56,428 nt of DNA from Candidatus Parepulonipiscium sp. PG-Nuni2H_MBin01. GTDB taxonomy: Bacteria > Bacillota > Clostridia > Lachnospirales > Cellulosilyticaceae. The number at the start of each line of letters is the position of its first letter. Positions within the stretch are counted from its first letter, which is position 1. A program made the position numbers and the translations under genes. The notes beneath the pieces were generated by a model, which was not told the origin of the DNA, ran no database searches, and saw nothing but the letters and a program-made list of their open reading frames with translations. The stretch is taken from contig MDJM01000056.1 of the NCBI GenBank assembly GCA_001994995.1, forward strand, positions 1 to 56,428. The letters are read 5' to 3'. Below, one piece after another: positions 3,103 to 52,915 of the stretch.

Positions 3103-3789
3103 ATGAATATATTAATGATTGAAGATGAGGAAAGGGTTGCGGATATAGTTACGAAATATTTACAAAAGGAAGGGTATAACGTATTTACTTGTTACAACGG
3201 AACAGATGGGCTTAATGTATTTTTAAAAGAGAGTATAGAGGTGGTGTTGTTAGATTTAATGTTACCTGATATTCAGGGAGAAGAAATATGTAAGAAGATG
3301 CGCGAAGTTTCTAATGTATATATTTTTATGCTAACGGCTAAAGGTACTTTGGATAATAAGGTAGATGGCTTTTCGATGGGTGCTGATGAGTATTTGGTAA
3401 AGCCGGTTAGCCCACGAGAATTAGTGGCTAGAGTAAATGCATTAAAAAACAGAAAAGATAGAGAAAGTAATCAGGATATATATAGTTTTGATAAGGGGAA
3501 TCTAAAGATATATCCAGATGAAAGAGTAGTAAAAGCCTATAATAAGGAAATAAATTTAACGCCTAATGAATTTGATTTGTTGCTACATTTAGCACAGTCG
3601 CCAGGAAGAGTTTTTACTAGAGAGCAGCTAATTGATGCTGTTATGGGGCTTGAATTCGATGGGTTTGACCGTACTATAGATGTGCATATTAAGAATTTAA
3701 GAAAGAAAATAGAAGCAGATACAAAAAATCCTAAGTTTATTAAAACAGTGACAGGAATTGGGTATAAGTTAGATGGGGATGTGGTATAG
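3103..3789 (+). CDS. OmpR-family response regulator
   Basis: This 228-residue protein has a CheY-like receiver domain (1-115) with the acidic pair at residues 7-9 (EDEE), the phospho-acceptor Asp51 in LLDLMLPD and Lys101 in the LVKP motif. A winged-helix output domain (130-225) follows, with the typical end DRTIDVHIKNLRKKI ... IKTVTGIGYKL. It is followed after 18 bases by a sensor kinase and the two are surely co-transcribed. The next gene, the L,D-transpeptidase, faces the same way with its own promoter, so a cell-envelope regulon is possible but not shown. Confidence 0.93.
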   Translation: MNILMIEDEERVADIVTKYLQKEGYNVFTCYNGTDGLNVFLKESIEVVLLDLMLPDIQGEEICKKMREVSNVYIFMLTAKGTLDNKVDGFSMGADEYLVKPVSPRELVARVNALKNRKDRESNQDIYSFDKGNLKIYPDERVVKAYNKEINLTPNEFDLLLHLAQSPGRVFTREQLIDAVMGLEFDGFDRTIDVHIKNLRKKIEADTKNPKFIKTVTGIGYKLDGDVV

Positions 3790-47973: not shown

Positions 47974-48002
47974 TTGACATTATCTTTTTACAGGTGTATA
48001 CT
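47974..48002 (+). promoter_or_regulatory. Consensus promoter of the T-box transcript
   Basis: TTGACA at 47974-47979 and TATACT at 47997-48002 with the ideal 17-base spacer. Transcription should start near 48009, just before the T-box stem I. Confidence 0.85.
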
Positions 48003-48019
48003 CAGTATAAATTAAATAT

Positions 48020-48319
48020 TATTACCAAACGCAGTGAAGAGAAGAGTACGCAAACCACAAAGTTTACAGAGAACCTACGTATGCTGAGAGTAGGAACGGA
48101 GTGCTTGCCGAAGATGGCCTTGGAGCGGTGTACCGAGGTGTGAGAACACTTAGGCTACAACGGGATTCGCCCGTAACAGCGATAGAGTATGTTTGTACTC
48201 GATAAGGTTTATGTCGTGAGGCATAAGCGAAAAAAGGTGGTAACACGAAGCGGACTAATTCGCTCTCGTCCTTTTATGATATATCTACAGATATGTCCAT
48301 ATTGGATGGGAGCTTTTTT
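48020..48319 (+). promoter_or_regulatory. T-box riboswitch, probably tRNA-Met-responsive
   Basis: Stem I with GAAGAGTA (E-loop-like) and a distal CCTAC...GTAGG hairpin lies at 48031-48095. The specifier region GAAGATGGCCTTGGAG spans 48110-48125, followed by the usual ...TTAGGCTACAACGGGATTCGCCCG stems. The T-box motif AAGGTGGTAACACG lies at 48234-48247. The terminator is CTCTCGTCC (48263-48271) paired with GGATGGGAG (48304-48312), then CTTTTTT. The specifier is best read as AUG at 48114-48116, although GAU one base earlier is possible. The acceptor-pairing UGGU matches a tRNA with discriminator A73, as in tRNA-Met, not tRNA-Cys (U73). When uncharged tRNA binds, the antiterminator lets transcription run into cysK and perhaps on into metN. 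Confidence 0.85.
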
Positions 48320-48364: not shown

Positions 48365-49273
48365 ATGATTTACAATAACTTGTTTGAACTTATAGGTAAT
48401 ACACCAATTGTTAAAATTAATGACCCAGAAGTTAGTGGGCAGTTATATGCCAAATTAGAGTTTTTTAATCCAGGCGGTTCTGTAAAAGATAGGGCAGCAT
48501 TGTATATGATATCGGGGCTTAAGCAAAAAGGTATTATAACGGATAGCACTACTATAGTGGAGCCTACAAGCGGAAATACTGGAATTGGGGTGGCAATGGT
48601 AGCAGCAGCTTTAAAAGTAAAGTGTAAGCTTGTTATGCCAGAGAGTATGAGTTTAGAAAGAAGAGCTATTCTTAAGGGATATGGTGCAGAGCTAGTTCTT
48701 ACTAGTGCAAAAGATGGCATGGGTGGTGCAATCGCAAAGGCTAAGGAATTAGCAGAGCTAGATAATCATGTTATATTATCTCAGTTTACAAATGGGGATA
48801 ACGTGTTAGCTCACAAATCTACGACAGCTAAAGAAATTATTAGAGACTTCGATAAACTAGACTATTTTGTGGCAGCGATTGGCACAGGTGGTACTATTAC
48901 TGGAGTAGGTGAAATATTAAAGGAGCATTATAAAGATATTACGCTTATATCAATAGAACCTGAAACTTCACCGATACTTACCCAAGGCGTTAAAGGTCCG
49001 CATAAAATCCAAGGTATTGGAGCTGGATTTAAACCTGATATATTGAATTTAGATATTATAGATAAAATTTTAACTATATCTGATGAAGATGCTATGCAGT
49101 ATGCTAGAAAATTAGGTGCAGAACATGGGATATTAGCAGGCTTCTCAGGTGGTGCAAATTATAAAATTGCTTATGATATTGCAAAGGAAGCTTCTGCAGA
49201 TACAAAGGTACTATTTATTGTTCCAGATAATGGAGAGCGATATTTATCCACAGCGCTATATCAAGAAGAGTAA
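48365..49273 (+). CDS. cysK: Cysteine synthase (O-acetylserine sulfhydrylase)
   Basis: The product is 302 residues from the ATG at 48365, with TGGAGG eight bases upstream; the longer frame to 48293 lies in the T-box terminator region. It is a fold-type II PLP enzyme: Lys41 in FNPGGSVKDR binds PLP, PTSGNTGIG contacts substrate, GTGGTITG (about 175-182) cups the phosphate, and GILAGFSGGAN lies near the C terminus. It makes cysteine from O-acetylserine and sulfide in the cytoplasm. No cysE is next to it. The T-box with a Met-like specifier is unusual for cysK, but metNIQ follows downstream. CysM-type or homoserine-type activity cannot be excluded. Confidence 0.92.
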   Translation: MIYNNLFELIGNTPIVKINDPEVSGQLYAKLEFFNPGGSVKDRAALYMISGLKQKGIITDSTTIVEPTSGNTGIGVAMVAAALKVKCKLVMPESMSLERRAILKGYGAELVLTSAKDGMGGAIAKAKELAELDNHVILSQFTNGDNVLAHKSTTAKEIIRDFDKLDYFVAAIGTGGTITGVGEILKEHYKDITLISIEPETSPILTQGVKGPHKIQGIGAGFKPDILNLDIIDKILTISDEDAMQYARKLGAEHGILAGFSGGANYKIAYDIAKEASADTKVLFIVPDNGERYLSTALYQEE

Positions 49274-49282
49274 TACTTACTT

Positions 49283-49316
49283 TAACTATTGGTAACGTGG
49301 GTGTTGCCAATAGTTA
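49283..49316 (+). other. Long hairpin after cysK without a T run
   Basis: TAACTATTGGTAAC pairs over 13-14 bp with GTTGCCAATAGTTA, but it is followed by CATATTAAT, not by T residues. It may stabilise the cysK mRNA 3' end or mark partial termination before metN. Confidence 0.5.
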
Positions 49317-49329
49317 CATATTAATAGTA

Positions 49330-49503
49330 GAAAAAATTATTGAATTAAAAAAGCTATTGAAGCTGTTAACTTAATATGAGAACTCTCTAAAAGGAAGCTT
49401 TGGGGTCCAGGGGCAAAGCCCCACACCACCGGAGCAGCGATTGTTACTAAAAAATTTTGGAGGCTTTTCATACTTATAATAAAAAAATTATTGCATTAAA
49501 AAA
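49330..49503 (+). repeat. Intergenic repeat module, copy 2, inside near-identical direct repeats
   Basis: AAAAAATTATTGAATTAAAAAA near 49331-49352 recurs with one change near 49481-49502. Between them lie the core GCTGTTAACTTAATATGA (49362-49379) and a GGGG-CAAAG-CCCC hairpin (49410-49422), echoing the module at 41196-41235. The layout resembles a small mobile or MITE-like insert, yet no terminal inverted repeats are seen. Confidence 0.45.
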
Positions 49504-49533
49504 TCTACACAGCAACAATTATGGGGGGATAAA

Positions 49534-50280
49534 ATGATAAAGATTAATAATGTAGTAAAGAAATTTACTACAGGTACAAAGGAATTTACCGTGCTAGACA
49601 ATATTAGTTTGGAAATCGCAAAAGGCGAAATTGTTGGCATAATTGGTATAAGTGGAGCTGGGAAAAGTACGCTACTTAGATGTATCGGCGGACTTGAAGT
49701 TCCATCCTCAGGTACTATAGAAGTTGATAATAAGAACATAGCGGATTTAGATGCTAAACAAAAGATTGAGTACTACAAAAGCCTAGGAACAATATTCCAA
49801 GGATACAATTTAATGATGCAACAAACAGTTGCTAAAAATATAGCATTACCGCTTGAAATTAACAGAGTAAACAAGGCTGAAATTGAGGTAAAAGTAAATA
49901 CGTTATTAACATTAGTCGGACTTGAGGATAAAGCAAAGGAATATCCTGCTAGACTTAGCGGAGGTCAAAAACAGCGTGTAGCTATAGCTCGAGCGCTTGC
50001 TAATAATCCTAAATTACTATTATGTGATGAACCTACATCAGCGCTAGACTGCCTTACGACTAGAGCAATACTAGATTTACTAAAAAAGATAAATGCAGAG
50101 CTTGGGATTACAATCGTAATTATAACTCATGATATTGAAGTTGTGGAAAGCATTTGTGATAAGGTAATAGTGTTAGATAAAAGTAATCTAGTAGAACAAG
50201 GATTAGTAACAGAAGTATTAAGTTTACCTCAAGCCGATATAACTAAACAATTTTTAGGAAAAGAGGCACATCAATGGTAG
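49534..50280 (+). CDS. metN: Methionine ABC transporter ATP-binding protein, short form
   Basis: This 248-residue protein has Walker A GISGAGKST (38-46), the Q loop FQGYNLM, signature LSGGQKQR, Walker B LLLCDEPTSALD and the His switch ITHD. It matches MetN-like ATPases, but common MetN proteins are about 340 residues and carry a C-terminal NIL/ACT-like domain that binds methionine and shuts transport. That domain is absent: the chain ends after FLGKEAHQW at the overlap with metI. The D-loop reads SALDCLTT rather than SALDPxTT. It is first of metN-metI-metQ-metQ with GGGGGAT before the ATG. Confidence 0.85.
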   Translation: MIKINNVVKKFTTGTKEFTVLDNISLEIAKGEIVGIIGISGAGKSTLLRCIGGLEVPSSGTIEVDNKNIADLDAKQKIEYYKSLGTIFQGYNLMMQQTVAKNIALPLEINRVNKAEIEVKVNTLLTLVGLEDKAKEYPARLSGGQKQRVAIARALANNPKLLLCDEPTSALDCLTTRAILDLLKKINAELGITIVIITHDIEVVESICDKVIVLDKSNLVEQGLVTEVLSLPQADITKQFLGKEAHQW

Positions 50281-50921
50281 AAATATTACTAGAAGGAACG
50301 TTAGAAACTTTGTATATGACATTTGCATCAACACTGCTGGCATATTTAATAGGAATGCCACTTGGCATATTAGTTACTATTACAGATGAAAAAGGAATTA
50401 TGCCAAATAAAATCATTAACGGAGTAATTGGTTGTGGGATTAATATAATTAGGTCAATTCCATTTATTATATTACTAATTGCTTTAATTCCACTTACTAA
50501 ACTAATTGTAGGCAAAAGCATTGGTTCAACTGCTGCAATCGTACCGCTAGTTATTGGTGCTGCTCCATTTGTAGCTAGAATGATAGAATCGTCATTACAC
50601 GAAGTTGACAATACGCTTATTGAATCAGCAATAGCTATGGGGTGTAACAAAAGGGAAGTGATTTTTAAAGTTATGATACCAGAAGTAATACCAAGTATTG
50701 TTAGAGGACTTTCAATTACGCTAATTACGCTAATAGGCTACTCAGCAATGGCAGGAGCAGTTGGTGGCGGTGGTCTTGGGGATATTGCAATCCGCTACGG
50801 TTATTATAGATACCAATACGATACAATGATGCTGACTATTTTTATTTTAATCATTATGGTTCAATTGATACAATTTACATGTAACTATATTGCTAAAAAG
50901 ATAGATAAGAAAGTCAGATAA
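50274..50921 (+). CDS. metI: Methionine ABC transporter permease
   Basis: This 215-residue protein has five membrane segments and the MetI blocks ETLYMTFASTLLAYLIGMPLGILV, RSIPFIILLIALIPLTKLIVG, and the coupling (EAA) loop ESAIAMGCNKREVIFKVMIPEVIPSIVRG. GYSAMAGAVGGGGLGDIAIRYGY is the usual end block. It overlaps metN by 7 bases, so translation is coupled. It forms a dimer in the membrane with MetN below and receives substrate from MetQ. Confidence 0.92.
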   Translation: MVEILLEGTLETLYMTFASTLLAYLIGMPLGILVTITDEKGIMPNKIINGVIGCGINIIRSIPFIILLIALIPLTKLIVGKSIGSTAAIVPLVIGAAPFVARMIESSLHEVDNTLIESAIAMGCNKREVIFKVMIPEVIPSIVRGLSITLITLIGYSAMAGAVGGGGLGDIAIRYGYYRYQYDTMMLTIFILIIMVQLIQFTCNYIAKKIDKKVR

Positions 50922-51057: not shown

Positions 51058-51873
51058 ATGAAAAAATTAGCAATAGCATTTAGTTTATTAATTGCATTAA
51101 CAGGATGCGCAAGTGCAGATGTACAATCAGAAGCAACAGGACTTACAACAATTACAGTAGGAGCGTCACCAGCTCCGCATGCAGAAATATTAGAGTTTGT
51201 AAAACCTACATTAGCAGAACAAGGGATATATCTTGAAATTGAAGAGTTTACAGACTATGTGTTACCGAATATAGCAGTAGATGAGGGCGATTTAGATGCG
51301 AATTTCTTTCAACATGTGCCGTATTTAACTAATTTCAATGAAAATAACGGTACAGATATTGTATCAATAGGCGCAGTGCATTTTGAGCCACTTGGAATTT
51401 ATGCTGGCAAAAGCACCTCATTGGATGACTTAACAAAAGGAGGCGCTGAAGTTGCCATACCTAACGACACCGTTAACGAAGCTCGCGCACTAGCTTTATT
51501 AAATCAATTGGGAGTAATAGAGCTTGATGAAACAGCAGGTCTTAGCGCAACGCCAAATGATATAATTAACAATCCTTACAATATAAGCTTTGTAGAAATC
51601 GAGGCTGCACAAGTTCCAAGAATAATTCAAGAGGTGGATTTTGGAATTGTAAACGGAAACTACGCTTTAGATGGTGGAATTGTTGATTTGGTTGTGGCAA
51701 CAGAAGATAATAACTCGGAGTTTGCGATTTTATATGCAAATATAGTTGCAACTCATGGGTCAAACGTTAATAATGAAGCACTTAAAATACTTGTAGAGGC
51801 GCTACAAAGCCAAGAGACTATAGATTTTATTACTTCTAATTATAACGGAATTGTACTTCCAGCAGGAAATTAG
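51058..51873 (+). CDS. metQ: Methionine-binding lipoprotein
   Basis: This 271-residue lipoprotein (lipobox LTGC, Cys17) shows the NlpA/MetQ family blocks: TITVGASPAPHAEILEFVKP, IAVDEGDLDANFFQHVPYL, VAIPNDTVNEARALALLNQLG and VEIEAAQVPRIIQEVDFGIVNGNYAL. It delivers methionine, perhaps also methionine sulfoxide, to MetNI. GAAAGAGG precedes the ATG. It is followed by three palindromic repeats and a second metQ. Confidence 0.93.
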   Translation: MKKLAIAFSLLIALTGCASADVQSEATGLTTITVGASPAPHAEILEFVKPTLAEQGIYLEIEEFTDYVLPNIAVDEGDLDANFFQHVPYLTNFNENNGTDIVSIGAVHFEPLGIYAGKSTSLDDLTKGGAEVAIPNDTVNEARALALLNQLGVIELDETAGLSATPNDIINNPYNISFVEIEAAQVPRIIQEVDFGIVNGNYALDGGIVDLVVATEDNNSEFAILYANIVATHGSNVNNEALKILVEALQSQETIDFITSNYNGIVLPAGN

Positions 51874-52096: not shown

Positions 52097-52915
52097 ATGA
52101 AAAAGTTAGCATTGTTTTTAAGTATAGCAGCATTGACAGGTTGTTCTAGTTCAGAAGTGTTGCAAACTGAAGCTACAACAGGTGTTACAACTATTACTAT
52201 AGGCGCAACGCCAACACCAGCAGGGGAAATATTAGAATATGTAAAGCCTTTATTGCTAGAGCAAGGGATATATCTAGAAATTAAAGAATTTACAGACTAT
52301 ATATTACCAAACATAGCAGTAGAAGAGGGAGACTTAGATGCGAACTTCTTTCAGCATATTCCTTATCTAACTGACTTTAACGAAAATAATGGTACGGATA
52401 TAGTTCCAGTAGGGAAAGTACTTTTTGCGCCACTTGGGATTTATCCTGGAAAAAGCACAGAGCTTGAGGAGTTAAAAAAAGGTGGAGTTGAAATTGCAAT
52501 ACCTAATGACACAACAAACGAAGCTCGCGCATTGGCATTACTGGAACAGCTAGGGATAATTGAAATTGATAGCTCAGCAGGACTTTCGGCAACTCCAAAA
52601 GATATAATTAGCAATCCATATGATGTAAGCTTTATAGAAATTGAAGCGGCACAAGTTCCAAGAATAATCCAAGATGTGGATTTTGGTGTTATAACTGGTA
52701 ATTATGCTCTAGACGGTGGATTTACTGACTTAGTTTTAGCAACAGAAGATAGCCAGTCCGAATTTGCTATCTTATATGGTAACGTAGTTGCAACCCATAG
52801 TTCAAACGCTGATAATGAAGCTATTAAAACACTTGTAGATATTTTGCAAAGCCAAGTGACGATAGATTTTATAAATGATACGTATAACGGCGCAGTGCTG
52901 TCAGTAATTGATTAA
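52097..52915 (+). CDS. metQ: Second methionine-binding lipoprotein, paralogue of the upstream gene
   Basis: This 272-residue lipoprotein (LTGC, Cys16) is closely similar to the first over its whole length, for instance ILEYVKPLLLEQGIYLEIKEFTDY and VSFIEIEAAQVPRIIQ. It is a recent tandem duplicate. Differences cluster in the signal peptide and at the C terminus. One transporter with two binding proteins may have wider substrate range. It has its own GAAAGAGG and ATG and lies about 220 bases from the first. Confidence 0.92.
   Translation: MKKLALFLSIAALTGCSSSEVLQTEATTGVTTITIGATPTPAGEILEYVKPLLLEQGIYLEIKEFTDYILPNIAVEEGDLDANFFQHIPYLTDFNENNGTDIVPVGKVLFAPLGIYPGKSTELEELKKGGVEIAIPNDTTNEARALALLEQLGIIEIDSSAGLSATPKDIISNPYDVSFIEIEAAQVPRIIQDVDFGVITGNYALDGGFTDLVLATEDSQSEFAILYGNVVATHSSNADNEAIKTLVDILQSQVTIDFINDTYNGAVLSVID

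Follow-up and report, generated by a model that had tools for sequence, protein, structure and literature searches.

What does a T-box riboswitch sense when it stands before a cysteine synthase gene that is followed by genes for methionine uptake? The question is raised by a leader in Candidatus Parepulonipiscium sp. PG-Nuni2H_MBin01, where a first-pass annotation had placed cysK, then metN, metI and two copies of metQ behind a T-box whose features seemed to fit tRNA-Met rather than tRNA-Cys. The window (the whole stretch of DNA analysed, 56,428 nucleotides) is an entire contig (G000:C56) of a fragmented assembly of 2.7 Mb in 88 contigs, with a completeness of 95.6%; it was compared with its relatives in a set of 24 genomes of the same family (G000-G023, the window's own genome being G000). 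The reading argued for below, to which we would give a probability of about 0.9 on the evidence of the sequence, is a canonical T-box riboswitch that acts on transcription, has tRNA-Met specificity and reads into cysK-metN-metI-metQ-metQ.

The annotation had described the T-box as complete, and folding on the covariance model bears this out: promoter, stem I, antiterminator and competing terminator are all present (Table 1), and the RF00230 match, on the forward strand, is full-length, covering model positions 1-219. At 84.6 bits it falls below the gathering score of 93, so that a default Rfam scan misses the leader; the nearest homologue, L084, scores 97.2 and passes that cut-off. Stem I has its AGUA/GAA loop-E motif, specifier loop, AG bulge and distal loop, all of which RNAalifold recovers independently, with covariation. 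(A technical note: when stem I is folded alone on energy only, the native form is missed (z +0.76); comparative folding recovers it.) The T-box sequence AAGGUGGUAACACG folds as the usual antiterminator, with UGGU located in its bulge. The 3' strand of the antiterminator, CUCGUCC, is common to the terminator, whose stem pairs 48262-48271 with 48304-48313; the two folds are mutually exclusive (-12.8 vs -25.5 kcal/mol). When 17 leaders, the window's own among them, are aligned on the RNAalifold structure, 96.5% of cells are paired and 21 of 55 pairs have changes on both sides, a level that none of 500 shuffles reaches; slid controls are 35-47% paired, a comparison biased towards the structure by its having been derived from the same 17 sequences.

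Table 1. Features of the T-box leader and of the genes behind it (window coordinates)
Feature	Position	Strand	Basis
Sigma-70-type promoter, TTGACA-17-TATACT	47974..48002	+	11/12 consensus matches, best in region scanned
T-box leader, stem I to antiterminator	48025..48276	+	RF00230, 84.6 bits, E 4.6e-19
Specifier loop 3' strand, GAAGAUGG	48110..48117	+	GAA-N-AUG-G unpaired between two helices in RNAalifold
Specifier codon AUG (Met)	48114..48116	+	5-nt register before GGAG; invariant in 17 leaders
Antiterminator with 7-nt T-box bulge	48232..48275	+	fold -12.8 kcal/mol; helices 9 and 10 covary
UGGU, would pair with ACCA (A73) of tRNA-Met	48238..48241	+	sequence; A73 of the genome's tRNA-Met
Intrinsic terminator, 10-bp outer stem then T6	48262..48319	+	fold -25.5 kcal/mol
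cysK, cysteine synthase A	48365..49273	+	TIGR01139, 390.8 bits (cut-off 350.95)
metN, short form without C-terminal domain	49534..50280	+	TIGR02314 best match, profile 1-241 of 343
metI, permease	50274..50921	+	PRK10782, 222.8 bits, above cut-off
metQ, copy 1	51058..51873	+	MetQ/NlpA family, E 9e-46
metQ, copy 2	52097..52915	+	MetQ/NlpA family, E 4e-43

Which codon does the specifier loop present? Its 3' strand reads GAA-GAUG-G, in which GAU (Asp) and AUG (Met) overlap, one base apart. Counting from the loop-E GAA makes GAU the codon, so that AUG is not self-evident and comparative tests are needed. Could the T-box then sense tRNA-Asp, with AUG a chance overlap? A codon directly after GAA is, after all, the register of many T-boxes, including those for Ala, Leu, Gly and Trp in this family. 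The other side of the loop says otherwise. The comparison was made with 24 T-boxes of the same family that were found by covariance model and have an identified downstream gene (alaS, asnS, asnA, valS, leuS, leuA, pheS, glyS, ileS, trpB, metG, argS or serine acetyltransferase; representatives were named by NCBIfam, the rest through protein similarity and one leuA by eye). In all 24 the position exactly 5 nt before the stem-I GGAG holds the cognate codon, while every other register relative to GGAG holds it in 0-1 of the 24, and its distance from GAA varies between 0 and 2. In the window this 5-nt register gives AUG; GAU, 6 nt before it and thus out of register by one base, has the position that fits in 1/24. 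The idea that Met specifiers alone have a special offset from GAA was also considered and set aside, offsets of 0 to 2 being common in the family.

Homologous leaders, which the annotation had proposed to compare, are informative in a different way. A DNA search of the 24 genomes finds related leaders in 14 others of the family, the nearest, in G015, being 77% identical over its full length. In those found by DNA similarity before metG or metN the loop sequence is GAA-N-AUG-G, N being G, C or T, and N is A in one covariance-model match before another metG; both kinds were collected without requiring AUG. Across the aligned set (12 leaders before metG, 3 before metN, one that runs off its contig, and the window's own) AUG is invariant, 17/17, with the qualification that part of the set came from a pattern scan requiring ATG and is to that extent not independent evidence for the codon; the preceding base may be G, C, T or A. 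GAU and UGY, which the annotation had named as contrary outcomes, were looked for in the specifier position and not found there. The specifier is accordingly placed by two comparisons, and both decide for Met: AUG is the codon because 24/24 T-boxes keep the 5-nt spacing of cognate codon and GGAG, and because AUG stays fixed in the homologues as the base before it changes. An Asp sensor has against it, besides register and variable base, that most homologous leaders precede methionyl-tRNA synthetase genes, that the genome's tRNA-Asp has G73, and that the family's own Asp T-box (L104) combines GAC with UGGC, where the window has UGGU; we regard it as very improbable. T-boxes with two codons and dual specificity have been proposed, and the overlapping GAUG might be thought to let tRNA-Met and tRNA-Asp both be read; AUG alone is conserved, however, the overlapping codon being GAU, CAU, UAU or AAU according to the leader, and the downstream genes have no link to aspartate. 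Such a double reading is very improbable.

The annotation had offered UGGU as a second, independent clue to methionine. It does fit A73 of tRNA-Met (both tRNA-Met types of this genome have it) and not U73 of tRNA-Cys; the discriminator of tRNA-Asp is G73. It is not exclusive: asnS T-boxes of the family with an AAC specifier also carry UGGU, and for that reason the clue is consistent but weak, supportive rather than deciding. (tRNA-Asn normally has G73.) A Cys T-box was rejected on both counts, with no UGC or UGU in the specifier position and UGGU in place of UGGA; the family's Cys T-box (L100) has UGC and UGGA. As an aside on Asn codons, a T-box with AAC (L047, G010:C217) precedes an aspartate--tRNA ligase gene, which might be explained by tRNA-dependent formation of Asn or by the contig being a contaminant.

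How far does the control extend? Profile matches confirm the gene order that the annotation had given. The window's metN is 73% identical to that of G015; both its product (248 aa) and the G015 ortholog (245 aa) are without the C-terminal domain present in the 343-aa MetN family. In relatives G021 and G007 MetN is of the long form. Beyond the metQ pair lie two tandem genes of the C-GCAxxG-C-C family (TIGR01909; 52979-54756), then a TauE/SafE-like permease (by eye). Between cysK and metN is a spacer of 260 nt in which a scan detected no terminator. It holds a 14-bp inverted repeat at 49283-49316 (-18.1 kcal/mol, no U run) and, at 49331-49507, 26-nt direct repeats (92%), 151 nt apart, that flank a GC-rich palindrome and may mark a small insertion. 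Given the strong hairpin and the repeat-flanked palindrome, metN may be partly uncoupled from cysK. At the extreme, the T-box would control cysK alone and metNIQ would have a promoter of its own in or after the spacer: the length of the spacer, its hairpin and its insert would suit this, and a weak promoter-like site lies at 49506-49535, of a kind equally frequent in shuffled sequence. That extreme is unlikely, given a spacer with nothing terminator-like in it and relatives in which a Met T-box directly adjoins metN (G015, the closest, and G021 and G007; three other genera in all). Transcription from the T-box on into the transporter genes is the reading that we keep.

The relatives also bear on how cysK came to stand where it does. 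Only in the window's genome is it found between a Met T-box and metN. Control of metN by the T-box is probably the older arrangement, because G015 and the two others have no gene between them. The genome's two cysK genes are 65% identical, and a tree makes them sisters (support 99/95) inside a clade that holds the Epulopiscium cysK; on this ground horizontal gain from far away is not supported. In G010 and G012, members of that clade whose neighborhoods were read, an apparent serine acetyltransferase gene (by eye) follows cysK. The simplest reading is that cysK was duplicated and that one copy was inserted between T-box and metN, the direction being what the comparison suggests; that cysK was instead lost in three other genera is less likely.

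The T-box at 48025-48276 is the sole one that the covariance-model scan finds in its genome, a census that degenerate T-boxes with E above 1e-3 would escape, and a SAM-I riboswitch is likewise not found there. By the same scan many relatives, in several genera, have 13-24 T-boxes vs 0-1 in genera g1, g3 and g4 (0 in all genomes of g4 and in the majority of those of g3); SAM-I riboswitches are likewise absent from these three. The annotation had called S-boxes the more usual device in Clostridia, and within this family SAM-I does lead directly into metNI in 11 relatives (G001, G003, G005, G006, G016-G020, G022 and G023). A SAM-I riboswitch also stands directly before a cysK (L222, G016:C12:24206-24304): in G016 methionine-type control has thus reached that gene along a different path. 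In G015 a gene for a substrate-binding lipoprotein has two T-boxes in tandem before it (L052/L081, G015:C47:3017-3246 and 3386-3621). A history that we somewhat favor is that the lineage beside Epulopiscium lost its SAM-I riboswitches and nearly all of its T-boxes, and that one surviving Met T-box captured a duplicated cysK, placed before metN.

The proposed mechanism is the usual one. Uncharged tRNA-Met would pair its CAU anticodon with the AUG and its ACCA end with UGGU; this would stabilize the antiterminator, and transcription would read into cysK and on to metN-metI-metQ-metQ. With charged tRNA the terminator would form. A cell short of methionine would thus induce cysteine synthase along with methionine uptake. 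That the RNA responds to methionine, and that cysK and metN share one transcript, we infer from the leader and the locus; from the order of the genes it follows that uncharged tRNA-Met would drive cysK and metNIQ alike. Why cysteine synthase? The genome encodes MetF (assigned by eye), MetH and an O-acetylhomoserine sulfhydrylase-like protein (by eye within PF01053, and cut by a contig end), so that methionine synthesis from sulfide seems feasible, with no obvious need for cysteine as its precursor. The co-induced cysK may, conjecturally, serve general sulfide assimilation.

T-box antitermination before a methionine ABC transporter has precedents: in Lactobacillus paracasei a Met T-box with specifier ATG precedes metQ3-metN-metP, and cysE-cysK is without a T-box (PMC6004538); in Lactococcus lactis a T-box with UGGU and predicted tRNA-Met specificity precedes a met operon (PMC7058034). 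Those are Lactobacillales, whereas this is a clostridial relative of Epulopiscium whose first gene is cysK. Staphylococcus aureus likewise has a Met-specific T-box in place of S-boxes, there on biosynthesis genes (metICFE-mdh) and specific for initiator tRNA (PMC3771891); here both tRNA-Met types have A73, and an initiator preference is indistinguishable. The clostridial precedent for a T-box before cysK, in Clostridium perfringens (cysK-cysE), is a Cys T-box with UGC and UGGA (PMC2940859) rather than AUG and UGGU. The SAM-I riboswitches of the relatives exert methionine-related control on the same operon and sense SAM, not tRNA. A Met T-box on metNIQ is thus already known from Lactobacillales; what is new is the lineage and the presence of cysK in the operon. 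The literature searched, mostly without subscription papers, yielded no account of cysK behind a Met T-box.

As a practical rule, T-box specifiers are to be read from the stem-I GGAG side, not from the loop-E GAA. For the family, the uncommon feature is a cysteine-synthesis gene between a Met T-box and the methionine-uptake genes that such T-boxes control in relatives. If the insertion ran in the direction proposed, it illustrates cleanly how a duplicated gene that lands behind a riboswitch comes under new regulation. More broadly, a single clostridial family shows the exchange of SAM-I riboswitch and Met T-box in the control of one and the same transporter operon, in parallel with the Lactobacillales, where SAM riboswitches were lost and Met T-boxes expanded (PMC3766115).
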